Assembly: GCF_024436055.1 (NCBI RefSeq)
Contig: NZ_JANFNH010000005.1
Location: 62,001-126,000, forward strand
DNA from: Streptantibioticus rubrisoli
GTDB taxonomy: Bacteria; Actinomycetota; Actinomycetes; Streptomycetales; Streptomycetaceae
DNA length: 64,000 nt
Reading direction: 5' to 3'
The notes beneath the pieces are model-generated. The model saw only the letters and a list, made by a program, of their open reading frames with translations. It had not been told where the DNA came from and searched no databases. Both the position numbers and the translations under genes were made by a program. This document shows positions 1,383 through 31,150 of the stretch, in pieces; position 1 is the first letter of the stretch, and each line of letters starts with the position of its first letter.

Positions 1383-3389
1383 TCAGGGCACGTACTGCCC
1401 GGAGTTGCTGGACCACAGCGCACCGCTGGTGCTCGTGTGGACGACCAGGTTCCCGTCGTCCTGCATGGACGCGTAGGCGCCCGAGTGGCCCCAGGTGCCG
1501 CTGGCCCACAGGGCGCTGCCGCTGCTCGGGTAGACCACCAGGTTGCCGTCGCCCTGCATGTCCACATAGGCACCCGAGTGGCCCGAAGTGCGGCTGGACC
1601 AGATGGCCTTGCCGTCACTGTTGCGGTACATCACGAAGTTGCCGTCCAACTGCACCACCAGCCGGGTGTACTGGGCCTGGGTCCACCAACCGGCCTGGAG
1701 CTTGTGGCCCGAGCCGATGGTCTGGGACCGCGTGTAGGTGCCGTCGGCCCACAGCCCACCGCCCATGCCCGTGCCGCCGGTGCTCTTGTAGACCACGAGG
1801 TTCCCGTCGTCCTGCAGCACGGCGTAGGCACCGGAGTTGCCCCAGGTGCCGCTCGCCCACAGCGCACCGCCACCGCCCGGTCCGCCACCGCTCGGGTAGA
1901 CCACCAGGTTGCCGTCGCTCTGCATGTACGCGTACGCGCCGGGGTGCCCCGAGGTGCGGCTGGCCCACACCGCCGGACCGGTGCCGCTGCCGCCGGTCTT
2001 GAGGTAGGCCACCAGGTTGCCGTCGGGCTGCATCACCACCGTCGCGCTGGCGCTGCTCAGGCTGTGCCCGGGTATCAGCCGCTGGCCCGGCTGGAGCGTG
2101 GTCCCGGTGAGCGGCCCGCTGGTGAAGGCGGCGGTGCCGTTGGGGGTCCCAAGGCCCGTCGGACCGTCGTAGCCGGAGCCCGCGGTGCACAGGTAGCCCG
2201 GGGAGCAGGTGCCGTTGGAACCGGTCGTGACGTCGTTGAGCGCCGATGTCCGGCCGTACGGGTACGAGGCCGGATAGGTGCCCGCGGCCGGGGTCCCCGC
2301 GAGGGCGTAGGTGGCCGCGATGATCGGGGACGAGGCGCTGGTGCCGCCGAAGACGTTCCAGCCGGAGGCCCCGTAGCTGTCGTAGACGGCGACGCCGGTG
2401 GCCGGGTCGGCGACGGCCGAGACGTCCGCGACGGTGCGGTGCGAGCAGCCGGTGTCGGTGGTCTGCCAGGAGGGCTTGGGTTCGTCCGCCGAGCAGCCGG
2501 ACCCGGTGCCGTGGGTGCTGTCGGTGCTCCACACCGACTCGGTCCAGCCACGGGAGTTGGCCGCGCGGCTGAGCGCGGTGCCGCCGACGGCGGTGACGAA
2601 CTGGGAGGAGGCCGGGTACGTGGCACCGTAGCCGCCGTCGCCCGCGCTGACGGTGATGGCGACGCCTGGGTGGTTGAAGTACTGGCTGTCCACGGTGGTT
2701 TCGGCCGGGTTCTCGGCGCCGCCGTAGGAGTTGGATATGTACTTCGCGCCGAGCGAGACGGCCTTGTTCTCGGCCGTGCCGAGGTCGGTCAGGCTCGGCG
2801 AGGCGGCCTCGACCAGCAGGATGTGGCACTGCGGGCAGACGGCGCTGACCATGTCGAGGTCGAGGGAGATCTCACCGGCCCAACTGGAGTCGGCCGCCGG
2901 GTAGTTGGTGCCGCCGTTCTGGTCGACCTTGCGGAAGCAGCCGTTCGCCGTGGTGCAGGCGGGCAGGCCGTACTGGGAGCGGTAGGTGGCGAGGTCCGAC
3001 TCGGCGCTGGGGTCGTCCTGGGCGTCGACGATGGCCACGGTCTGGCCGGAACCGGCGGTGGCGGACGGCAGGTTGTAGGCGCTCTGCAGGTCCGAGGGGC
3101 CGTAGCCGGACGGTGTGGCGGCCGCGCTGACGCTCATGTGCTGGACGATGTCGGTGCGCGCCTCGGCGAAGCAGGCCATCTGGCCGGGCTTGGCGGCCTG
3201 GTCGCACAGGTGCCTGACGTGTGCCGTCGCGGTGGCCGCCGGGTGCCCGGCGGCGACGGACGGGGTCGCCGCGAGCAGTCCGCCGGACACCAGGGCGGCG
3301 GCCGACAGCACGGTGGCCGCGGCATGGCCCGCACGCCTCCCGCGTCTGTTGTCCGGCTCGGTGTTGCGGGGTTCAGTCCTTGAGCGCAA
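1383..3389 (-). CDS. Secreted sedolisin (S53) protease with two B-lectin domains
   Basis: A 668-residue protein is read from a TTG at 3389, preceded by AAGGG at a 7-nt spacing. An ATG at 3440 would add 17 residues but has no Shine-Dalgarno. An arginine-rich n-region and hydrophobic core ending in SVAAG look like a signal peptide. The serine-carboxyl peptidase core keeps Glu173 and Asp177 (GEISLDLD), oxyanion Asp251 (SAGDGG) and Ser351 (GGTSASSP). A calcium-loop-like stretch (GYDGPTGLGTPNG) follows. The last 260 residues hold two bulb-type mannose-lectin domains, each with three QxDxNxVxY-type repeats; the final repeat ends in His instead of Tyr. Sedolisins are acid-active endopeptidases, and the lectins probably tether the enzyme to glycans, which is inference. 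Confidence 0.88.
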   Translation of the reverse strand: MRSRTEPRNTEPDNRRGRRAGHAAATVLSAAALVSGGLLAATPSVAAGHPAATATAHVRHLCDQAAKPGQMACFAEARTDIVQHMSVSAAATPSGYGPSDLQSAYNLPSATAGSGQTVAIVDAQDDPSAESDLATYRSQYGLPACTTANGCFRKVDQNGGTNYPAADSSWAGEISLDLDMVSAVCPQCHILLVEAASPSLTDLGTAENKAVSLGAKYISNSYGGAENPAETTVDSQYFNHPGVAITVSAGDGGYGATYPASSQFVTAVGGTALSRAANSRGWTESVWSTDSTHGTGSGCSADEPKPSWQTTDTGCSHRTVADVSAVADPATGVAVYDSYGASGWNVFGGTSASSPIIAATYALAGTPAAGTYPASYPYGRTSALNDVTTGSNGTCSPGYLCTAGSGYDGPTGLGTPNGTAAFTSGPLTGTTLQPGQRLIPGHSLSSASATVVMQPDGNLVAYLKTGGSGTGPAVWASRTSGHPGAYAYMQSDGNLVVYPSGGGPGGGGALWASGTWGNSGAYAVLQDDGNLVVYKSTGGTGMGGGLWADGTYTRSQTIGSGHKLQAGWWTQAQYTRLVVQLDGNFVMYRNSDGKAIWSSRTSGHSGAYVDMQGDGNLVVYPSSGSALWASGTWGHSGAYASMQDDGNLVVHTSTSGALWSSNSGQYVP

Positions 3390-3830
3390 GGAACCGCCCT
3401 TCTGTGTGGGATGCCGCGCGCCGGTGCCTGCCCTGCCCATGACAGGACGAACCGGTGGATGCGGGATGAGCGAGGAAGAAGATGCCAGTCAGTGCTCAGT
3501 GGCGAGCACCGAACAGCGCGCGATGTCGATGGCGTTCGGCTCCGGCGCACACGGACAAGGCGTTGCGGGTACGGCTAAGCGGCCGCGTACCAGGGCTCGT
3601 TGAGCCACCGTTTCCTCCCGTGCGGGGCGATGGAGCATGGACGGACCCGGCTGGGACGACGGTCCACGCCATCCGGCCAGTCACGTGCGAGGCCCCGACC
3701 ACCCCACCCCGTGCGATGCGCTGGAGGGTAGCGCATGTTCATCTGGGGAGGAAGACACACTCCGACCGTGCCCGGCCGCTGCCCAACCGGAGCGTTCCCC
3801 TGCGGTACCGCGGGTTGTCGCCGCCGCGTC
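3390..3830. other. Non-coding stretch upstream of the protease gene
   Basis: No reading frame here has a convincing start, codon bias or recognisable domain. It should contain the protease promoter (minus strand) and the 3' flank of the LysR remnant. I see no clear operator, hairpin or repeat. The 92-residue minus-strand frame at 3575-3853 looks like noise. Confidence 0.5.
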
Positions 3831-4320
3831 TCAACCGGCCACAAGCCGAGCAAGCCGAGCGAGCTGGTCCGCCACGACCCGCGCCGCCGGGGCGACCCAA
3901 CGCCGCCGGTGCCGGGTCAGCTGCACCGGTACCGGCGGCACCTCCGGCCCGCCGACCACCGCCAACTCCCCGTTACGCAACTGGCGTTCGACCGTCGCCC
4001 GGGGCAGCAGCGTCAGCCCGAGTCCCGCGGCCACGCAGGAGCGGGCGGCCTCGATGCTGCCGAAGCGGGTCAGGCGGGGCCGGGCATCGGGGAGGGCCAG
4101 CAGAGTGCGCACGAGGCGGTCGCTGTACGAGCAGCCCTCCTCGTGCACGAAGAAGCTCTGCGCGGCCAGTTCGTCCCACCCGACCTCGCGCCCGGCGAGC
4201 GGATGGTCGGCGGACGCCACGTACACCAGCGGTTCGCTCGCGATGGGGCGGGCGACCAGGTCGGCGAAGTCCACCTCGGGCTCCAGGAGCAGCGCCATGT
4301 CGAGCATTTCGATCGGGCCG
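3831..4320 (-). pseudogene. LysR-family regulator remnant (C-terminal effector domain only)
   Basis: About 160 codons on the minus strand match the second half of a LysR regulator. They include the hinge-like MLDMALLLEPEVDF, the typical ADHPLAGREV segment, a glycine-rich GSIEAARSCVAAGLGLTLLP strand-helix unit, and a normal stop at 3831. The N-terminal winged helix-turn-helix that every LysR protein needs is absent. The homology ends near 4320, immediately beside the truncated PhzF fragment on the other strand. No start codon with a Shine-Dalgarno precedes it. It is most likely dead, although an isolated effector domain could in principle still be made. Confidence 0.75.
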
Positions 4321-4344
4321 AGCGAAAAGAATCGTTGGACTCGA

Positions 4345-4599
4345 TATCCCGCCGACTTCGACTTCCACGCTCGCGACCCGTTCCCGGTCGGCGGCGTCGT
4401 GGAGGACCCGGCCACCGGCGCCGCGGCCGCCGCCTTCGGCGGTTACCTGCGCTGCCTGGGCCTGGTCGACCAGCCGACCCGGGTCCGCATCCGCCAGGGC
4501 GAGGACATGGGCCGTCCCAGCCGCCTCCTCGTGGACGTGGCCCCCGACGACCCGCGCGTCCGCGTCACCGGCCAGGCCGTCCGGCTCCCGCAGCCGTGA
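4345..4599 (+). pseudogene. PhzF-family isomerase remnant (C-terminal part)
   Basis: This 84-codon plus-strand frame matches the C-terminal end of PhzF/YddE isomerases: a VEDPATGAAAAAFGGYL motif (the family's EDPATGSA substrate-loop region), then GEDMGRPSRLLVDV, and a stop at 4597-4599. The N-terminal two thirds, including the catalytic glutamate region, are missing and no plausible start precedes the fragment. The left end abuts the LysR remnant read in the opposite direction. A single deletion through a divergent LysR-PhzF pair, removing both 5' ends and the shared promoter, explains both fragments. Confidence 0.75.
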
Positions 4600-4633: not shown

Positions 4634-7273
4634 TCAGGGGAGTTGGCGCCGGTCAGCCGCCTGCCCCGGTGGCAGTTCCTGTTCGGCCCAGATGGTCTTA
4701 CCGGTCGGCGTGTAGCGCGTACCCCACAGGTGGGCCATCTGGGCGATGATGAACAGGCCGCGGCCGCCCTCCTCGTCGGTGGCGGCGTGGCGCAGGTGGG
4801 GCGAGGTGTGGCCGGTGTCGGAGACCTCGCAGATCAGGGTGCGGTCGCGGATCAGGCGGACGTGGATCGGGCCGTCGGCGTGCCGGATGGCGTTGGTGAC
4901 CAGTTCGCTGACGATCAGCTCGGTGGTGAACGCCAGCTCGTCCAGGTGCCATTCGGCCAGCTGGGCGGCGACCACCGTGCGGGCGTGGCCGACCAGTTCC
5001 GGGTCGGCGGGCAGTTCCCACACCGCCGTCTGGTGCTCGCCGAGCATCCGGGTGCGTACCAGGAGCAGTGCGGCGTCGTCGTCCACCGGGCCCGGCAGCA
5101 GCGCCGCGACGGCGCTGTCGCACAGCTCCTCCAGCGGGCGCCGGTGCTGGGCGAGGGTCCGGGCGAGTTCGGTGAGCCCGGCGTCGGTTCCGTGGGCGGC
5201 CTGGACCAGGCCGTCGGTGAACAGGGCGATGAGGCTGCCTGGCGGAAGCTGGAGCTCCGTGCTCTGGTACGGCGGGCCGCCGATGCCCAGCGGCGGCCCG
5301 GGCGGCAGCTCGGGGTAGCTGGCGACGCCGCCGCTGTCCGGCAGGACCACGGCGGGCAGTGTGTGCCCGGCCCGGGCCAGGCTGCACCGTCCGTTGACCG
5401 GGTCGTACACCGCGTACAGGCAGGTCACCCCGCGCACCTCCGCGTCCGCGTGCCGGGCGTCGAGCTGGTCGCCGGACCCCTGCTCCACCAGGTCGTCCAG
5501 CCGGGCCAGCACCTCGTCCGGGGCGAGGTCGAGCCGAGCCAGCACCCGTACCCCGGTACGCACCCGTCCCATGGTGGCTGCGGCGCGCACGCCGTGCCCG
5601 AGCACATCGCCGACGACCAGGCCGACCCTGGTACCGGACAGCGGGATCACGTCGAACCAGTCGCCGCCCACCCCTGACCCGCTGTCGGCGGGCACGTACC
5701 GGCTGGCCAGCTCCACGGCGGTCTGCGGCGGCAGCCGCTGCGGCAACAGGCTGCGCTGCAGCCGGAGCGCCGCGGCGTGCCCACGGGTGACGACCAGCAT
5801 CAGTACCACGCCCAGCAGCAGCGCGCCCAGGCCCACGACGGTCACCCCGCCGACCCGGCCCACCAGCGGTACGGACACCGAGGTCGCGCCGTACTTCGGG
5901 TTCGCGTACACACCGAAGGCGGCGTAGCAGAACAGGAACAGCATCATCAGCCCGCCGAGCCCCGGCAGCAGGCCCTTGAACAGCAGGTCCCTGGCGCTAC
6001 GGGTGAGCACCCCGCGGTAGAACCAGACGCAGGCGAAGCCGGTGAGGCCGTAGTAGAACGCGATCGCCAGTCCCACCGACTGGATCGAGTCGGCCAGTAC
6101 GTCATGGCTGAACGCGGTCAGCAACACCAGGAAGCCGATGGAGGCCAGGCCCATGCCGACCGTCGACCAGGTCGGCGTGAGGAACCGGCGATGCACCCGG
6201 GCGAAGCGGGAGGGCACGGCCTTGTGGGCGGCCATGGAGAAGACGGTCCTGGCCATCGGCAGGATGGTGGTCTGGGTGGAGGAGACCGCCGATGTCAGCA
6301 CCATCAGGACCAGCAGCCGGGACAGCAGCAGTCCCGTGCCGTGACCGCCGAAGACCGCGTTGCCCAGGACGGAGAGCACATCGCCCGAGTTGGCGGCGTT
6401 GCCCAGGCCGATCCCGGTCGGGCCCACTCCGGCGAACGCCTGCGCGGAGGTGGCGACCAGGCCATAGGTGACCAGCAGCGACACGGTGGAGATGACCGCG
6501 GCGCGCCCGGGGATGTGCGCGCTGTCGGCGGTCTCCTCGTTGACCGAGACCGCGGTGTCCCAGCCCCAGTAGATGAAGACCGCGGCCAGGACGCCCTGGG
6601 TGACCGCCCGGGCGGAGGCGACCTGGAAGGGGTCGAACCAGGAGGCGGAGACATGGATCGACGTCGGCCCGGGGCTGGTGTAGACCCGCACCAGGGCGGT
6701 CACCGCGAACAGCACCAGCACCGCCACCTCGACGCACAGCAGCCAGCGCTGCACCGCGGCCGACAGCTCGATGCCCACGTAGCAGATCGTGGTCATCACG
6801 ATGATCCAGCCGACGCCGACGACGGTCGTCCACAGCCGGTTGCCCGCGAGCGCGTCGTACCCCAGCAGCCGGAAGCCGTAGGTACCGGCGATCTCGGCGA
6901 GGTTCGCCATCACGAGGATGTCGGCGACGATGATGCCCCAGCCGCCCATCCAGCCGGTGCGCGGCCCGAAGGCACGGGTGGCCCAGGTGAAGGTGGTGCC
7001 GCAGTCGGCGTTGGCCGCGTTCAGCTCCCGGTACGCGTATGCGATCAGCAGCATCGGTATGAAGGCCAGCATCGTGATGATCGGGGCCTGCAGGCCGACG
7101 CCCGCCACGATGAGGCCCAGGGTGGCGGCGAGGCTGTACGCCGGAGCGGTGGACGCCAGGCCGATGACGACCGAGGAGAACAGCCCCAGGGCGCCGCTCC
7201 TGAGCCCCTTGCGACCCGCACCGGCGGCTGGCGCGAGCCGGGCGGTGTAGGAGGCACCACCGTAGAGCTTCAC
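4634..7273 (-). CDS. APC amino-acid permease fused to SpoIIE phosphatase and RsbW-like ATPase
   Basis: One uninterrupted 879-residue frame combines three parts. Residues about 20-495 form an APC-superfamily permease with the helix 1 GLASTAPAYSLAATLG break and some 12-13 membrane segments. Residues about 497-740 are a PP2C/SpoIIE phosphatase with GGDWFDV, GDVLGHG, FTDGL and VDDDAAL metal-site motifs. Residues about 755-865 are a GHKL ATPase of the anti-sigma kinase type with an intact N box (ELVTNAIRHA), G1 (SDTGHTSP) and G2 (GGRGLFI). The GTG at 7273 is chosen because GGAG lies 10 nt upstream; an upstream TTG at 7285 has no spacing for one. The permease may act as a transporter-receptor steering a partner switch on anti-anti-sigma proteins. 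That role is inference, and no antagonist gene is adjacent. Confidence 0.9.
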   Translation of the reverse strand: MKLYGGASYTARLAPAAGAGRKGLRSGALGLFSSVVIGLASTAPAYSLAATLGLIVAGVGLQAPIITMLAFIPMLLIAYAYRELNAANADCGTTFTWATRAFGPRTGWMGGWGIIVADILVMANLAEIAGTYGFRLLGYDALAGNRLWTTVVGVGWIIVMTTICYVGIELSAAVQRWLLCVEVAVLVLFAVTALVRVYTSPGPTSIHVSASWFDPFQVASARAVTQGVLAAVFIYWGWDTAVSVNEETADSAHIPGRAAVISTVSLLVTYGLVATSAQAFAGVGPTGIGLGNAANSGDVLSVLGNAVFGGHGTGLLLSRLLVLMVLTSAVSSTQTTILPMARTVFSMAAHKAVPSRFARVHRRFLTPTWSTVGMGLASIGFLVLLTAFSHDVLADSIQSVGLAIAFYYGLTGFACVWFYRGVLTRSARDLLFKGLLPGLGGLMMLFLFCYAAFGVYANPKYGATSVSVPLVGRVGGVTVVGLGALLLGVVLMLVVTRGHAAALRLQRSLLPQRLPPQTAVELASRYVPADSGSGVGGDWFDVIPLSGTRVGLVVGDVLGHGVRAAATMGRVRTGVRVLARLDLAPDEVLARLDDLVEQGSGDQLDARHADAEVRGVTCLYAVYDPVNGRCSLARAGHTLPAVVLPDSGGVASYPELPPGPPLGIGGPPYQSTELQLPPGSLIALFTDGLVQAAHGTDAGLTELARTLAQHRRPLEELCDSAVAALLPGPVDDDAALLLVRTRMLGEHQTAVWELPADPELVGHARTVVAAQLAEWHLDELAFTTELIVSELVTNAIRHADGPIHVRLIRDRTLICEVSDTGHTSPHLRHAATDEEGGRGLFIIAQMAHLWGTRYTPTGKTIWAEQELPPGQAADRRQLP

Positions 7274-7747
7274 ACCTGATTCCAACTCCGTGCCCCTCGG
7301 CCCGCAACGCCGGGCCGAGGCGGCGGGGGCCGGTCGGGGACGGCGGTGCGTCGGTCGGCAACGGCGGAGGCCGGTCGGGGACGGTGGAGGGCAAAGGTGG
7401 GTCGGTACGGGTGGAACATTCGGCGGCTTCGTCCCCAGCGCCCCCAGCGCCCCAGAACCCTCAGAGCCCCCACAGCCCCCCCCCCCCCGGACCGCAGGGC
7501 CAGGGCACGCGCGGGCGCCACCACCCCACCCGCCCCAGCCACCTCAACCGCAGGCTCACTGACGCCCCGTCAGCCAGCGCAACGCCCTTACGCACCGGTG
7601 TAGTTGACGCGCGCCCACCACGTGATCCCAAGCCCCGCCTGATCGCAGCCTTAACGGAACCCAAAACCGCACTCCGCGCCCCCGCAACCGCCTAAGTTCG
7701 TTGCCGCCCGGGCACCACTCACCCCCGAAACCGAGAGGTAACGGCAG
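7274..7747. other. Divergent intergenic region with hairpin, direct repeat and C-tract
   Basis: About 470 bp without a gene. It holds a 10-bp hairpin (7295-7304 with 7311-7320) just upstream of the permease-fusion start and a 16-bp direct repeat GGCCGGTCGGGGACGG at 7328-7343 and 7369-7384. It also holds a run of 13 C at 7476-7488. Promoters of the fusion (minus) and the CAP protein (plus) must lie here, but I could not place them. Confidence 0.6.
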
Positions 7748-8464
7748 ATGAGCGCGCACCGTCACACCGAGGTCGGCAGGAGAAGGCACCGCCTGCCCCG
7801 CAGGCCCCGGCTTCGGGTGGCACTGGCAGGCGGCGCCGTGATCGCCGCCCTGGGCGGCGGCACCGCCTTCGCCTGCCTGAGCACCCCCGGCCAACCGCCC
7901 GCCACGACCCGGGCGTACCGGCAAGCGCCTCAGGAACCGGCGGCGGACATCACCTGGCCCCCCTCGCCGCCAAGTCGCCCCGCGGCCCCGCAGATACCCA
8001 CTCCCCGTCCCCCGCGGCCGCCGAAGCCACCAGCGGCCCCCGACGACCCGGTCCACCAGGTGCTCGCGTTGATCAACAAGGCCCGCGCGGCCGAGGGCCT
8101 GGCTCCGTACACCCTGCTGAACGGTCTCGTCCGGGCCGCCGCCGCGCACAACCAGGTGATGGCGGACGGCTGCGGCCTGTCCCACCAGTGCCAGGGCGAG
8201 CCACCGTTCTACGAGCGCGACCGGGCACAGGGCGTACCGGCCTCGGCGGGCGGCGAGAACATAGGCGAAGGCGGCCCGTTGGGCGACACGCGGCAGGCGG
8301 TGGCGTCGATGGCCGTCCAGCTGACGCGGGGCATGCTCGACGAGAGGCCACCGAACGACGGCCACCGCCAGAACATCCTCAGCGCGACCTACACCCACGT
8401 CGGCATAGCCACCTACCGCGACCCGGCGGGCACCGTCTGGCTGACCCAGGACTTCTCCCGGTAG
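7748..8464 (+). CDS. Secreted CAP/SCP-domain protein
   Basis: A 238-residue protein. A basic N-terminus and hydrophobic segment (VALAGGAVIAALGGGTAFA) form a signal peptide or anchor. A proline-rich linker covers about residues 45-105, and a CAP (SCP/PR1) domain fills the rest. The CAP signatures are visible: NKARAAEGLAPYTLL with a following HNQVMA helix, GENIGEG, and DGHRQNIL near the C-terminus. DGCGLSHQC suggests a disulfide. Bacterial CAP proteins are exported and bind lipids or other ligands; no enzymatic role can be assigned. The ATG has GAGAGG about 9 nt upstream. The linker suggests spanning of the cell wall. Confidence 0.85.
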   Translation: MSAHRHTEVGRRRHRLPRRPRLRVALAGGAVIAALGGGTAFACLSTPGQPPATTRAYRQAPQEPAADITWPPSPPSRPAAPQIPTPRPPRPPKPPAAPDDPVHQVLALINKARAAEGLAPYTLLNGLVRAAAAHNQVMADGCGLSHQCQGEPPFYERDRAQGVPASAGGENIGEGGPLGDTRQAVASMAVQLTRGMLDERPPNDGHRQNILSATYTHVGIATYRDPAGTVWLTQDFSR

Positions 8465-8644: not shown

Positions 8645-9616
8645 GTGGGGCGGAGAAAGCGCAGCGCTGGGATAGCACTGCTGGCCGGTGCGGTACTGGC
8701 CAGTACGGGTGTGTTCGGCGGTAACGCGGTGGCGGCGACGCCGGGCGCCAAGGCGGCGACGAAGGCTCCGGCGAAGGCGAGTGCGCGTCCGGCGGCGGCC
8801 AGTTCGTCGCGCGCGGCGATGCTGCTGGACTCGATCACACCCAGCAGCGGCAGCACCGTCGGTGTGGCCATGCCGGTCTCGGTGGTGTTCTCCGACCCCG
8901 TGGCGCCCTCGGCGCGGGCCAACATCGAGCGGCATCTGAAGCTGACCACCTCGGTTCCGGTCACCGGCGCCTGGCACTGGTTCGGCGACCGGCGGGTCGA
9001 CTTCCGCCCCAAGCACTACTGGCCGTCCGGCACCAAGGTCACCCTCAACGCCAACCTGACCGGTGTGGGCGACGGTTATGGCCGTTACGGCACCCACGGC
9101 TACACGCACACCTTCACCATCGGCGCCGACGTGGAATCCACCATCTCCGTGCCGGGCCACACCATGAAGGTGTACCGCGACGGCAAGGTGGTCCGCACGA
9201 TGCCGATCGACGCGGGCAGCCCGCAGTTCCCCTCCTGGGACGGCACCATGGCGGTGATCGACAAGCAGGCCAAGGTGCGAATGACCTCGTGCAGCGTCGG
9301 CATCACCTGCGACCCGCACAACCCCAACTACTACGACATCACGCTGCCTTGGGACGTCCACCTGACCTTCTCGGGCACCTACGTCCACTACTCCACCGCC
9401 GACCCGCACCCGGGGCACGCCAACGGCTCGCACGGCTGCGTCCACCTGTCGTGGAATGACTCGGAGTGGTTCTACAACTACTCGAAGCAAGGCGACCCGG
9501 TGACCATCACCGGATCGCCGCGCGGCAAGGCCGCCGGGGACAACGGCTACGCGGACTACGACCTCAGTTGGTCGCAATGGCTGGCGGGCAGCGCCACCGG
9601 CGCCATCACGGTCTGA
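8645..9616 (+). CDS. L,D-transpeptidase, secreted form
   Basis: A 323-residue protein with a GTG start preceded by GGAGCAGGAGC. The signal peptide ends at NAVAAT. An alanine-rich spacer is followed by a bacterial Ig-like domain (about residues 60-155) and a YkuD catalytic domain (about 160-290). The active-site signature SHGCVHLS carries the nucleophilic cysteine, and HYSTADPHP supplies the upstream conserved histidine region. The C-terminal tail YADYDLSWSQWLAG is typical of actinobacterial Ldts. These enzymes make 3-3 cross-links in peptidoglycan, accepting carbapenems as inhibitors. It has no lipobox cysteine, unlike its neighbour at 9814, with which it shares most of the sequence and the promoter design; they are a tandem duplication. 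Confidence 0.93.
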   Translation: MGRRKRSAGIALLAGAVLASTGVFGGNAVAATPGAKAATKAPAKASARPAAASSSRAAMLLDSITPSSGSTVGVAMPVSVVFSDPVAPSARANIERHLKLTTSVPVTGAWHWFGDRRVDFRPKHYWPSGTKVTLNANLTGVGDGYGRYGTHGYTHTFTIGADVESTISVPGHTMKVYRDGKVVRTMPIDAGSPQFPSWDGTMAVIDKQAKVRMTSCSVGITCDPHNPNYYDITLPWDVHLTFSGTYVHYSTADPHPGHANGSHGCVHLSWNDSEWFYNYSKQGDPVTITGSPRGKAAGDNGYADYDLSWSQWLAGSATGAITV

Positions 9617-9768: not shown

Positions 9769-9813
9769 TGGGGATGTCGAACATCCAGTGAAGTAACGGG
9801 AGTGGAGCAAGGC

Positions 9814-10797
9814 GTGGGGCGGATCAAGCACGGCATCGGGATGGCGCTACTGGCTGGTGCGGTGCTGGCAAGCGCCACCGCGTGCGGTGGGCATGCGGTG
9901 GCCTCGACCACCGACGCGAAGGCGTCCGCGCAGCCCAGCGCGAAGGCCAGGCCGAGCGCCCACCCGTCGCCGACCCGGCCCGCCGGGCCGCCGATGCTGC
10001 TGGACACCATCGCGCCGCAGGACGGCAGCACCGTGGGCGTGGCCATGCCGATCTCCGTCGAGTACAGCAACCCGGTGGCGAAGTCGGCCCGGGCCGATGT
10101 CGAAAAGCACCTGAAGGTGACCACCTCGACCCCGGTCACCGGTGCGTGGCACTGGTTCAGCGAGACCCGGGTCGACTTCCGGCCCAAGGACTACTGGCCG
10201 TCCGGCACCAAGGTCACCCTCAACGCCGACCTGAACGGCGTCAGTGACGGCAACGGCCGCTACGGCACCCGTAGTTACCAGCACACCTTCACCATCGGCG
10301 GCGACTTCGAGGCCAGCGTCTCGGTGACCGGGCACACCATGAAGGTCACCCGCGACGGCAAGGTGGTCCGCACCATGCCGATCGACGCGGGCAGCCCGGA
10401 CTTCCCGTCGTGGGACGGCACCATGGCCGTGATGGACAAGCAGGCCAAGGTACGGATGACCTCGTGCAGCGTCGGCATCACCTGCGACAAGAAGAACCCG
10501 AACTTCTACGACCTGACGCTGCCTTGGGACGTACAGCTCACCACGTCCGGTACGTACGTCCACTACTCCACCGGCGACCCGTACCCGGGCAACAGCTATG
10601 GCTCGCACGGCTGTGTGCACCTGTCGATGGACGACGCGAAGTGGTTCTACGACAACGTCGAGACGGGCGACCCGGTGACCATCTCCGGATCGCCGCGCGG
10701 GGGCGCCGCCGGGGACAACGGCTACGCGGACTACAACGTCTCCTGGACCCAGTGGCTGGCCGACAGCGCCACCGGCCAGCAGACCACCGGCGCGTAG
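9814..10797 (+). CDS. L,D-transpeptidase, lipoprotein form
   Basis: A 327-residue paralogue of the preceding gene. The GTG at 9814 is chosen because GGAG sits 6 nt before it and the product then begins VGRIKHG like its neighbour; a GTG at 9802 is the alternative. The signal segment ends in ASATACGG, a lipobox-like cysteine, so this copy is probably lipid-anchored. Ig-like and YkuD domains follow, with SHGCVHLS giving the catalytic cysteine. It should form 3-3 peptidoglycan cross-links at the outer face of the membrane. A weak hairpin at 10809-10828 may end the transcript. Confidence 0.93.
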   Translation: MGRIKHGIGMALLAGAVLASATACGGHAVASTTDAKASAQPSAKARPSAHPSPTRPAGPPMLLDTIAPQDGSTVGVAMPISVEYSNPVAKSARADVEKHLKVTTSTPVTGAWHWFSETRVDFRPKDYWPSGTKVTLNADLNGVSDGNGRYGTRSYQHTFTIGGDFEASVSVTGHTMKVTRDGKVVRTMPIDAGSPDFPSWDGTMAVMDKQAKVRMTSCSVGITCDKKNPNFYDLTLPWDVQLTTSGTYVHYSTGDPYPGNSYGSHGCVHLSMDDAKWFYDNVETGDPVTISGSPRGGAAGDNGYADYNVSWTQWLADSATGQQTTGA

Positions 10798-27849: not shown

Positions 27850-29175
27850 CTACGCGGGCAGCAGCAGGGCGAACACCGGGCCGGGACCGGGCCGTCTGAG
27901 GACCAGGCGGCCGCCCTCCGCCTCCGCGAGCGAGCGGGCCAGGGCGAGCCCGATGCCGTGGCCACGCTGCCGTGGCACCGCGAAAGCCGCGTCACCGCCA
28001 CCGGCCGGTCCCGGCCCCTCGTCGCCGACCTCCAGCGCCACCCCGGCACCGACGTCCGCCGCCACCAGGCTGATCTCACCGCGGCCGTGCGCCAGCGCGT
28101 TGTCCAGCAGCACGTCCACGATCTGCAAGATGGCCACCTCGGACGCCCGTACCGGGGGCAGATCGGGTTCGCACCGTAGGGCCAGCGAGCGCCCGGCGTC
28201 GTTGATCGCGTCCCGGTGGCGTGCCGCCGCCTGCTCAAGCAACCGGCCGACGTCGACCGACCCGGCGCAGCGGTGGGTGTCCCGGGACAGGTGGAGCAAC
28301 TCCTCGACGGTCCGGCCCAGTTGGTCGGCCCGCCGCAACGCCGTGGTCAGCGACTCGCGCGGCACCGGTCCCTGCTGTTCCAGTGCCCGCTCCAGGCCGA
28401 GGATCAGCGCGGTGAGCGGGGTGCGCAGCTGGTGCGACACCGCGGTGCTGAACCGCCGTTCCCGCTCCAGCAGTTGCCCCAGCCGCTCGGCGGTGGCGCT
28501 CAGCGCCTGGCCGACCGCGTCCGCCTCCCGGATGCCGCTGCGCGCGGGCTGGATGCTGAAGTCCCCGTCGCCCAGCGCCCGCGCGGTGGCCGTCAGCCGC
28601 TCCAGGGGTATCGCGATGCGGCGGGCCAGATGCCGGGCCAGCACCGCGGACAGCGCCACCACCACCGCGCCGAGCGCGGCGAGCAGCAGCCAGACGCCCA
28701 GGGTGCGGTCGGTGACGAAGTCCCACGGCAGCCAGGCCCGTACCACCGCGACCACCTTGCCGTTCCTGGACACCGGTGCCGCCACGGCGAGTTGGTCGTC
28801 CTCCACCGCCTCGTGCAGTCGCCCGTCGCGGGCCTGGAGCACCACCTCGGAGAAGTCCGGGCCCCGGCCGTCCATCCGATGCCCTGAGGTGGTGTAGATC
28901 GCCACATGGGTGTCCGGGGTACGGCTGCTGGGCAGCAGCGCACGTCCGTGCCGGGTGCTCGCCGGTACCGGCAGCGAGAGCGCCGCCCACACCGCGTTGC
29001 GTTCCACGGTGACCACCGCGTTGCTGCGGTAGATCCGATGCACCGTCAGCGCCAGCGGCAGGGTGAAGACCAGCACCGCGCACGCGGTGACCGCCACGAT
29101 GGACACCAGCACCCGCCTGCGCAGCGAGCCCGCCCGCACCGGGGCGCCGCGAGGGCGCCGACGCCCGCGCATCAT
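27850..29175 (-). CDS. Sensor histidine kinase
   Basis: A 441-residue membrane kinase. TM1 is at about 21-45, an extracytoplasmic sensor at about 46-155 and TM2 at about 157-180. A HAMP domain follows, then HisKA with phospho-acceptor His248 (FSTAVSHQLRTPLTAL), and a HATPase with LLDNALAHG and a late GHGIGLALARSLAEAEGG. The ATG at 29175 has GGAGG 8 nt upstream. It ends 49 bp from the convergent OmpR regulator. Separate promoters for kinase and regulator are unusual and could set their ratio; only the regulator carries a TTA codon. Confidence 0.9.
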   Translation of the reverse strand: MMRGRRRPRGAPVRAGSLRRRVLVSIVAVTACAVLVFTLPLALTVHRIYRSNAVVTVERNAVWAALSLPVPASTRHGRALLPSSRTPDTHVAIYTTSGHRMDGRGPDFSEVVLQARDGRLHEAVEDDQLAVAAPVSRNGKVVAVVRAWLPWDFVTDRTLGVWLLLAALGAVVVALSAVLARHLARRIAIPLERLTATARALGDGDFSIQPARSGIREADAVGQALSATAERLGQLLERERRFSTAVSHQLRTPLTALILGLERALEQQGPVPRESLTTALRRADQLGRTVEELLHLSRDTHRCAGSVDVGRLLEQAAARHRDAINDAGRSLALRCEPDLPPVRASEVAILQIVDVLLDNALAHGRGEISLVAADVGAGVALEVGDEGPGPAGGGDAAFAVPRQRGHGIGLALARSLAEAEGGRLVLRRPGPGPVFALLLPA

Positions 29176-29389
29176 GGCGCGGCCCTCCTCGACGGGCGGC
29201 GCACGGCGCGCCCCGGTAACCGTTCCGGCGGAGCAGCAGTGGAGGCGGTCACGCCCAGACGATATGGCACGCCCGCCGAATCCGCCTTTTTCCGACGGCC
29301 GGGCCGGTGCGACGCGGATGCGGATCACCCAGCGGGGTCCGACGATGAAGACGAGGCGGTTCGGACACGGGACAGGAGGAGGTAGCCGG

Positions 29390-31150
29390 GTGTGCCCCGA
29401 TGCTTCCGGCCGGGACGACGCCGACGCGCTGCACGCCGACGCCCTCTTCGACGCGGCCGCCGCCGCGCTCGCGGCGCACAGCACCGACCAGGTGCTGCGC
29501 GGCGTGCTGAACGGCACCTCCGCCGGCATCGTCATCCTCGATCCGCGGCTGCGCCACCTGTACGCCAACCCCGCCTTCACCCGGATGACCGGCGTACCCG
29601 CCGCCGACCTGCTCGGCCGGACCCTGGCCGAGGCGCTGCCCGAGGTGGCCGACCGGCCGGACGTGCAGCGGCAGGTGCTGGACGACGGCCAGCCGAGGGA
29701 AGTGGTGATCAGCGGCCGTACCCACGCCGACGCGCCCGAGGACCGCCGCTGGTGGCACTGCGCGTACCACCGGCTGACGGCCGAGGGCGGACGGGTCGGT
29801 CTGGTCGGGATCATGCTGGAGATCACCGAGTTCCGTCAGCAGCAGCACGACCTTGAGCAGGCCCGCCACCGGCTGTCGTTGCTGGACACCGCCGCCACCC
29901 GGATCGGCACCACGCTCGACGTGGACATGACCTGTGCCGAACTGGCCGACTTCATCGTGCCCCGGCTGGCCGACCTGGCCACCGTCGAGGTCGTCCCGTC
30001 CGACGCCCCGCACGGCACCGCGACCAGGCCGGGCGCGCTACGGCTGCGCAGGACCGCGCTCGCCACCATCCCCACGCTGACCGCCCGGGCCCACGCGGTG
30101 GGGGTGACCGGGGAGTACGTGCGGCATCCGGCCGGTTCCGCCGTGCAGCGCTGCGTGGCCAACGGCTCACCGGTGCTGTGGCGGCCGGGGGACGACGAGC
30201 GGCCGGAGGCGGAGCACGTCGCCGAGTACCGGGCGATGGGCGTCCACTCGCTGCTGGTCGTACCGCTCACCGCCCGCGGCCACACCATCGGCGCGATGAC
30301 CCTGGCCAGGGCCGGGCTGACGCCGCCGTTCGGTGAGGAGGACACCGTGCTCGCCCAGGACCTGGCGGGCCGGGCAGCGATCAGCGTCGACAACGCGAGC
30401 CGGTACGCCCGCTCCCAGGGCATCGCCCTGGAACTCCAGCGCGCCCTGCTCGCCGAGCCGGGCAGCCCGCACCCCAACCTGGAGATGGCCTCGCGCTACC
30501 TTCCGTCCGGCACCAGCGCGGTGGTCGGCGGCGACTGGTACGAGACCATCCGGCTGCCGTACGGGCGGACGCTGCTGGCCATGGGCGATGTGATGGGGCA
30601 CGGCATCGAGGCCGCCGTCGACATGAGCAACTACCGCTCGATACTGCGTTATGTGGCCGCCACCGACCTGCCACCGCACCGGATCCTGCGCCAGCTGGAC
30701 ACCCTGATCTGCGAGGAGAGCGAGGCGAGCCGCCCCGCCACCTGTCTGCTCGCGCTGACCGACCCCGCCCGCGAGCGCTGCGCCTACGCCAGCGCCGGGC
30801 ACCTGCCACCCGCACTGCTCGGCGAGGACGGCGGCACCGAGCTGATCAACGTGCCGGGCGGTCCGCCGCTGGGCACCTGCTTCGGCGGGTATGAGCTGGT
30901 GACCAGTCCCTTCCGGCCCGGTCAGGTGCTGCTGCTGTACACCGACGGGCTGGTGGAGCGGCGCGGTGAGGACATCGACGTCTCACTGGCCCGGCTGGCC
31001 GACCTCAAACTGCCGGTGGCAGGCGATCTGGACGACCTGCTCGACGAGGTGCTGCGCGGCCTGGTACCGCAGGCCGCCGAGGACGACATCGCCGTGCTCG
31101 CCGCCCGGCTGCGACCGCGGCCGGGGCCGGACGTCGTCGAGCCGACCTGA
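29390..31150 (+). CDS. PAS-GAF-SpoIIE protein phosphatase
   Basis: A 586-residue soluble protein from a GTG with AGGAGGAGG upstream; an ATG at 29345 is less likely. PAS domain at about 35-150 (SAGIVILDPRLRHLYANPAF), linker helix, GAF domain at about 165-345, and a PP2C/SpoIIE phosphatase at about 365-580. The phosphatase keeps GGDWYET, GDVMGHG, LYTDGLVE and EDDIAVL, so the metal site looks intact. It should dephosphorylate an anti-anti-sigma factor of the STAS type, after sensing through PAS/GAF. It is divergent to the histidine kinase and has no adjacent anti-sigma gene. Unlike the fusion at 4634 it carries no kinase domain. Confidence 0.9.
   Translation: MCPDASGRDDADALHADALFDAAAAALAAHSTDQVLRGVLNGTSAGIVILDPRLRHLYANPAFTRMTGVPAADLLGRTLAEALPEVADRPDVQRQVLDDGQPREVVISGRTHADAPEDRRWWHCAYHRLTAEGGRVGLVGIMLEITEFRQQQHDLEQARHRLSLLDTAATRIGTTLDVDMTCAELADFIVPRLADLATVEVVPSDAPHGTATRPGALRLRRTALATIPTLTARAHAVGVTGEYVRHPAGSAVQRCVANGSPVLWRPGDDERPEAEHVAEYRAMGVHSLLVVPLTARGHTIGAMTLARAGLTPPFGEEDTVLAQDLAGRAAISVDNASRYARSQGIALELQRALLAEPGSPHPNLEMASRYLPSGTSAVVGGDWYETIRLPYGRTLLAMGDVMGHGIEAAVDMSNYRSILRYVAATDLPPHRILRQLDTLICEESEASRPATCLLALTDPARERCAYASAGHLPPALLGEDGGTELINVPGGPPLGTCFGGYELVTSPFRPGQVLLLYTDGLVERRGEDIDVSLARLADLKLPVAGDLDDLLDEVLRGLVPQAAEDDIAVLAARLRPRPGPDVVEPT

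Follow-up and report, generated by a model that had tools for sequence, protein, structure and literature searches.

The window analysed here, 64,000 nucleotides of Streptantibioticus rubrisoli (contig NZ_JANFNH010000005.1, positions 62,001 to 126,000), encodes a single protein in which an APC-type amino-acid permease is joined to a SpoIIE/PP2C phosphatase and an RsbW-like GHKL ATPase. The fusion is real and not an artefact, and the permease appears to have replaced a GAF-containing sensor exactly at the linker helix that leads into the phosphatase. From sequence and a structural model, we consider it rather probable that the mechanism as a whole is that of a transceptor-type membrane switch feeding a partner-switch module. 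The module is a known one; what is new is its sensor, a carrier, together with a repeated change of phosphatase ligands.

In the proposed mechanism, an APC permease would have taken the place of the GAF-containing sensor ahead of a Streptomyces-type SpoIIE phosphatase and RsbW-like kinase/anti-sigma module. Solute binding or the transport cycle would move or pair the last transmembrane helix of the permease (TM12). Since TM12 and the phosphatase linker are predicted to form a single helix, this would in turn determine how the phosphatase domain pairs and how its switch helices are set, and would control the activity of the ATPase that follows. The module would then either determine whether one or more STAS anti-anti-sigma proteins, encoded elsewhere, are phosphorylated, or bind a sigma factor directly. 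In most relatives, where the metal ligands have changed but the phosphatase domain is still conserved, that domain may serve as a structural relay, with the ATPase providing the output. That the protein senses, the direction in which its signal runs and the partners on which it acts are what we infer here.

The gene is a single uninterrupted open frame of 883 codons from a TTG at position 7285, from which residues are numbered throughout. An earlier reading of this DNA (the sequence-only reading, made without database searches) had described permease, phosphatase and ATPase in one frame, and the Pfam domains confirm this:

4634-7285, minus strand: fused gene for an APC permease, a SpoIIE/PP2C phosphatase and a GHKL ATPase, with its start at 7285 or 7273.
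5876-7189, minus strand: APC amino-acid permease domain (AA_permease_2, residues 33-470), with 12 predicted membrane helices counting TM12.
5747-5848, minus strand: continuous predicted helix, residues 480-513, running from TM12 into the phosphatase linker (AlphaFold2 model and sequence comparison).
5051-5635, minus strand: SpoIIE/PP2C phosphatase domain (residues 551-745 by the Pfam match; the fold starts earlier).
4688-5014, minus strand: RsbW-like GHKL ATPase domain (HATPase_c_2, residues 758-866, by Pfam).

All three matches were clear, with E values of 4e-25 for AA_permease_2 (88.9 bits against a cut-off of 27), 7e-49 for SpoIIE (166.9 bits against 25) and 4e-15 for HATPase_c_2 (56.6 bits against 27.4), and the AA_permease profile also exceeded its cut-off (51.9 bits against 24.6). 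The box residues of the ATPase are E794 and N798 in the N box, D823 in G1, and G841 and G843 in G2. No NCBIfam model reached its cut-off in the fused protein (RsbA_anti_sig scored 53.1 bits against 210, anti-sigma F 16.1 against 135), and the ATPase domain is therefore not filed as RsbA or SpoIIAB. A Pfam scan at E values up to 1 listed neither GAF nor PAS in the chain, nor SLC5, STAC or histidine kinase DHp domains. As to the start, codon 1 is TTG, ATG or GTG in the window and in all 11 relatives inspected, which favours position 7285; codon 5, the GTG at 7273 from which the sequence-only reading began, is GTG in the window and in the same 11. A GGAG found in the window and in five of the 11 abuts the start at 7285 and lies 12 bases ahead of that at 7273. 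We leave the start undecided between the two.

In a whole-protein search, Mycobacterium tuberculosis Rv1364c (PDB 3ke6) was the sole solved relative at E below 0.001, with a match that covers the phosphatase and reaches into the ATPase. An AlphaFold2 model built on a 59-row alignment (mean predicted local distance difference test score, pLDDT, of 85) contains twelve membrane helices and two cytosolic domains. Foldseek ranked Rv1364c first for this model, followed by LAT1, BasC, ApcT and AdiC-type carriers; template-modelling scores by target length of about 0.72-0.81 against LAT1, BasC, ApcT and AdiC point, for the model, to a 12-helix LeuT-type fold.

The replacement of a sensor is read from the junction. 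The end of TM12 in the fused protein reads ...VVLMLVVTRGHAAALRLQRSLLP, whereas stand-alone permeases finish in a short tail, for example ...VLMLVQWAVQGSWFRDPDVP or ...PAFFRGETL. Residues 499-516 resemble the GAF-phosphatase linker of paralogues by sequence comparison: the fused junction has the motif TR[E/G]HxxALxLQRSLLP and the GAF-to-phosphatase helix of the paralogues TREHxxALTLQRSLLP. At T500, R501, H503, L509, Q510, L514 and P515 the fused proteins and the other modules share their predominant residue, which occurs in at least 44 of 45 fused rows and in 26-33 of 33 other modules. In the model, helix 480-513 is unbroken, so that TM12 is predicted to continue into the linker as a single helix. 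Because the motif matches and the helix continues, the permease seems to have replaced the sensor at precisely this point. The dimer interface of AdiC uses TM11/12; if an AdiC-type interface is valid here, two TM12 helices would enter the cytosol side by side.

The cognate kinase of B. subtilis SpoIIE is a separate protein. In the window genome, phosphatase and GHKL ATPase commonly share one chain: it holds 13 other SpoIIE-HATPase modules, 12 of them at 42-59% identity to the fused module and one at 36%. In all seven nearest paralogues, which were scanned for domains, GAF lies directly before SpoIIE, accompanied by PAS in four and by sCache, an extracytoplasmic sensor, in three; the permease holds the same place in the fused protein. 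The sequence-only reading had set the fusion against known switches with separate chains or PAS/GAF sensors; phosphatase and kinase in one chain are thus not what is new, and the carrier as sensor is. For that carrier to be the sensor, the support is anatomical, namely the GAF position in these paralogues and the predicted continuity of TM12 with the linker. The sensors reported for partner-switch phosphatases are PAS, GAF, receiver, HAMP and similar domains (PMC12143880). A linker helix that enters the PPM domain is reported to pass the signal to the phosphatase in RsbU, and proposed to do so in others, by a route of pairing and moving of the phosphatase switch helices that takes inputs from many sensor types (PMC12143880, PMC5468089); the word 'transporter' is absent from the main text of both papers. 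The window itself encodes a second SpoIIE-family protein (29063-31150, plus strand) with PAS, GAF and SpoIIE and no ATPase domain listed, 40% identical to the fused phosphatase part.

We then compared the catalytic residues of the two enzymes. SpoIIE binds manganese through D628, D746 and D795, and D610 is a would-be ligand of a second metal (PMC3517971). The counterparts in the window protein, the presumed metal ligands D542, D560, D691 and D736, are all present; they were assigned by motif and by alignment with Rv1364c, in which all four motifs align, and SpoIIE numbering was matched by motif. Judged by these residues and the ATPase boxes, both enzymes look intact in the window protein. Three of the four codons vary in the family:

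5606-5608, minus strand: presumed metal-ligand codon D560, E or N in 9 of 44 fused genes.
5213-5215, minus strand: presumed metal-ligand codon D691, changed in 12 of 44 fused genes.
5078-5080, minus strand: presumed metal-ligand codon D736, V or E in 21 of 44 fused genes.

All 44 fused genes retain D542. At least one of the other three ligands is changed in 30 of them, compared with 3 of the 33 other modules; these 33 all have D542, D560 and D736, and 30 of them have D691. Fourteen fused genes, the window's among them, keep all three; 21 have at least one non-acidic residue, and nine have only Asp-to-Glu changes and might keep some metal. The statement in the sequence-only reading that all metal motifs are present thus holds for the window protein, but not for the family. 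In the ATPase, whose N, G1 and G2 boxes it had described as intact, E794, N798, D823, G841 and G843 do not differ in any of the 44 fused genes or the 33 other modules; some other box residues vary. On a tree of the 44 genes, a single change accounts for D736 and falls at the base of a Streptomyces clade of 21 rows that adjoins the window's genus (support for this pairing 90/87, and 99 in the permease tree described below); D560 requires four changes and D691 seven. The locus L049 of Streptomyces triculaminicus JCM 4242 is an example of the intact form, and L059 of S. filipinensis has the D736V change. Streptomyces sp. NBC_01549 carries two fused genes on one contig (L045 and L055), one with D560 changed and one in the D736-change clade.

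The ratio of nonsynonymous to synonymous substitution rates (dN/dS), summed over the phosphatase, was 0.385 in eight pairs of the D736 clade, 0.322 in four pairs with D560 changes and 0.327 in seven intact pairs; single pairs reached up to 0.94 (L023-L028, with few changes). These values give no clear indication of relaxed selection where ligands changed, and we therefore read the phosphatase domain as kept for its shape. With ligands changed in 30 of 44 fused genes and the key ATPase residues the same in all of them, it is unlikely that the fused family has phosphatase activity as its conserved output. We infer that it has been lost in many relatives, and the best reading of the conserved output is the kinase/anti-sigma domain. 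It is possible, and we put it forward tentatively, that these proteins form a new transceptor class in which an APC permease of amino-acid/polyamine type signals the availability of its solute to sigma factors and drives a phosphatase-kinase through its last transmembrane helix, the phosphatase having been switched off repeatedly and serving as a relay, so that a permease-gated kinase/anti-sigma would remain.

The fusion is not a sequencing error, as the junction stands in 45 distinct fused genes; neither a missing stop nor a frameshift at residues 490-515, which the sequence-only reading had raised, accounts for it. All three genomes of the window's genus that the analysis covered, the window's included, carry the fusion, and at least 29 of 394 genomes of the family have, among the matches listed, one that reaches the junction in a long frame (loci from 24 of these were fetched and contain phosphatase sequence, L025 being cut by a contig end; the other five were judged by match end and frame length). 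Eighty named loci comprise 30 fused ones, the gap case L084, and a permease alone in 14 Streptomycetaceae and 35 other loci. In L084 both halves are in place and flank a run of N in the scaffold, that is, an assembly gap. The named fused loci belong to Streptomyces, Kitasatospora and L040 (S. ferralitis), plus L060, which is labelled Streptosporangium and groups among Streptomyces in the permease tree. In that tree (101 rows, built with a short search), 45 fused rows and L084 form one clade with a Shimodaira-Hasegawa-like approximate likelihood ratio test (SH-aLRT) support of 100, inside the stand-alone Streptomycetaceae permeases. In a tree of the phosphatase-ATPase module (78 rows), the 45 fused rows (44 genes with a complete module, as L122 repeats L014) lie on one side of a branch with support of 100, against 33 other modules from seven genomes. 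Because the fused rows form one group in both trees, the fusion most simply arose once.

Outside the family, no fusion was found among the matches listed in searches of the order (293 genomes) and the class (394 genomes), whose reach does not extend to other APC subgroups fused to SpoIIE. Eighteen long frames with a related permease were fetched, namely all 11 of at least 790 residues outside the family, a shorter one there (G451) and six from the family that do not belong to the fused clade; none is a fusion, the extra length lying upstream and just 15-74 residues following the match. A 1059-residue Pseudonocardia frame (L118:9950-13129), which could be mistaken for a permease fusion, was rejected: Pfam finds the permease only, and the tail looks like antisense readthrough over the neighbour. 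Plasmid homologues of the permease were found in 13 records, 12 annotated as APC family permease and one unannotated.

The domains show signs of purifying selection. Pairwise dN/dS was mostly 0.2-0.5 across permease, phosphatase and ATPase; between the window and five fused relatives it was 0.2-0.4 in the three domains and higher over the first 30 residues, and summed over the permease domain it was 0.25-0.36. Among five regions, the 40-codon junction ranked lowest in three of these pairs (0.08-0.13), second lowest in a fourth (0.23) and highest in the fifth (0.30).

Fused and stand-alone permeases share the signature residues S45 and P48-A49-Y50 in TM1, GWMGGWG in TM3, YWGWD...NEE in TM6 and TTILP in TM8. 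Positions that are near-constant in 55 stand-alone rows (L084, as the gap case of the fused clade, excluded) vary in the fused clade, with D122 changed to N in 18 of 45 and Q338 to E in 10 of 45 rows, and with A47, T337, T344 and Y411 varying as well. Most of these changes sit in the same Streptomyces clade as the D736 change; the window permease keeps A47, D122, T337, Q338 and Y411 and has Met at 344. No other close copy of this permease is present in the window genome, where the next best is 26-27% identical.

Gene neighbourhoods hint, weakly, at diamines, polyamines or GABA-like (γ-aminobutyrate-like) compounds as the permease substrate. In the 35 permease loci from other groups, the genes nearby include an aminotransferase resembling the L115 enzyme in eight (seven at 50% identity or more), an aldehyde dehydrogenase in ten (five at 50% or more) and an Lrp-type regulator in eight; these counts refer to the fetched stretch, include several closely related loci and were obtained with queries taken from L115 and L116. 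By NCBIfam, the dehydrogenase of L115 scores above the cut-off for aminobutyraldehyde dehydrogenase, and the L115 aminotransferase above that of a class-III family. Two of the 13 plasmid homologues adjoin a gene named as glutathionylspermidine synthase family. Examined as a substrate clue, the neighbours of the fused gene itself were uninformative.

For the output side, the window genome encodes eight STAS_2 proteins (the STAS_2 model alone was searched) and seven SigB/F/G-type sigma factors above cut-offs. None of these genes lies on the contig of the fused gene, all being on other contigs, which implies that the partners of the fused protein would act in trans.

Several observations weigh against the proposed switch. 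The linker is a less certain stretch of the model, with pLDDT of 82, 71 and 79 for the blocks over residues 491-520, and the model as a whole is a monomer with a predicted template-modelling score of 0.69. The dN/dS values are pairwise and carry no significance test. Of the 14 positions that are at least 95% conserved among stand-alone rows and differ in the fused clade, 10 lie in the cavity-lining helices TM1/3/6/8/10, compared with 64 of 139 unchanged positions, a difference that is not significant (Fisher p = 0.09). When a simple gene caller was used to compare the neighbourhoods of 30 fused loci, some of them on short contigs, no recurrent partner emerged: the three best-shared families occur in 10, 9 and 7 loci, and two of the three are DUF2344 and RNase E/G, the other having no Pfam match. 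The substrate hint comes from stand-alone permeases that are mostly 51-60% identical, and from a minority of these (seven of 35 loci for the aminotransferase); no such aminotransferase, dehydrogenase or Lrp-type neighbour was found at the 31 fused loci, L084 included, and the 14 near stand-alone loci have one distant aldehyde dehydrogenase and otherwise none of these neighbours.

The signal might also run in reverse: the protein would then be primarily a transporter, whose cytosolic phosphatase and ATPase bind a STAS protein or a nucleotide and thereby open or close the permease, as in other carriers. The retained signature motifs fit this, as does the fact that the fused gene is the sole close copy of its permease type in the genome and so may be needed for uptake; changed phosphatase ligands would be harmless in a domain that merely regulates. 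We nevertheless regard it as unlikely, since all seven paralogues carry the module behind GAF with PAS or sCache, where it is taken as the output, the linker sequence is kept in the fused proteins, and the changes at otherwise near-invariant permease residues in several fused lineages fit altered transport or ligand use. Less probable still is that the permease is a membrane anchor and nothing more, with a module that is constitutive or driven by other signals. Such a module would agree with the finding that the best-conserved catalytic residues are those of the ATPase; however, the permease domain bears the signs of purifying selection and the signature motifs described above, and a mere anchor has no need of a 12-helix carrier. 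Two neighbouring genes joined by a sequencing or assembly error can be dismissed, with 45 distinct fused genes from many assemblies in one clade with a conserved junction, and with the lone apparent exception in that clade, L084, being a run of N.

Other genes of the window were noted in passing. A CAP-domain (SCP-like) protein (7748-8464, plus strand) is divergent from the fused gene. It is followed by two similar tandem L,D-transpeptidases (Big_10 and YkuD; 8645-9616 and 9802-10797, plus strand), and an L,D-transpeptidase pair of the same family is also found near the fused gene of L040. On the minus strand, 3831-4415 encodes a LysR substrate-binding domain in a 194-residue frame with no DNA-binding domain listed, perhaps a gene remnant, and 1383-3440 a 685-residue protein with a B_lectin match, the first half of which resembles a sedolisin-type protease.

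If the carrier is truly the sensor, the transceptor-type switch that we favour would link the transport of nutrients directly to the activity of sigma factors, in bacteria noted for their antibiotics and their development, and the linker-helix toolkit of PPM phosphatases would also accept transporters. The family is in addition a natural experiment, with intact and altered phosphatase sites and key ATPase residues intact throughout, on which of the two enzymes carries the signal. In the open-access papers searched, we found no description of an APC-SpoIIE-HATPase fusion, in line with the sequence-only reading, which did not recall this domain order as a described family; the nearest were fusions of 5TMR to SpoIIE (PMC11109136).

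Among known systems, the Streptomyces-type GAF (PAS/sCache)-SpoIIE-HATPase regulators resemble the fused protein in the phosphatase-ATPase module and the linker motif; they differ in that the fused protein has a 12-helix APC permease in place of the GAF-containing sensor and that its ligands are often changed. One PPM phosphatase described as carrying both GAF and PAS domains is S. coelicolor OsaC (PMC12143880). Rv1364c, the best match in sequence and fold, likewise has the phosphatase followed by an RsbW-like domain in one chain, but is described with a PAS sensor ahead, an anti-anti-sigma domain behind and no transporter (PMC12143880). B. subtilis SpoIIE shares a partner-switch PP2C phosphatase on a many-helix membrane part, in this case of 10 transmembrane segments, whereas a regulatory domain lies in between and the text drawn on here does not present the membrane part as a carrier (PMC5468089). 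A transporter domain and a signalling enzyme in one chain, a 'transceptor', are found in CbrA and other SLC5-STAC histidine kinases, which are built from an SLC5 symporter, a STAC domain and a histidine kinase instead (PMC13022988, preprint); the linker from TM13 to STAC in CbrA has 30 residues and is partly disordered, as described in that preprint, whereas in the fused protein TM12 is predicted to pass directly into the phosphatase helix. The 5TMR-SpoIIE fusions also join a transporter-related membrane fold to a SpoIIE-type domain, but theirs is a receptor fold related to ECF S-components and prevalent in archaea, and the parts of the paper drawn on here mention neither an APC permease nor a GHKL ATPase (PMC11109136). 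Finally, E. coli RssB, which is derived from a PPM phosphatase, has no phosphatase activity and follows a linker-switch logic, lacks part of the PPM domain and has a receiver-domain input and a protease-adaptor output, yet offers a precedent for a non-catalytic PPM relay (PMC12143880).

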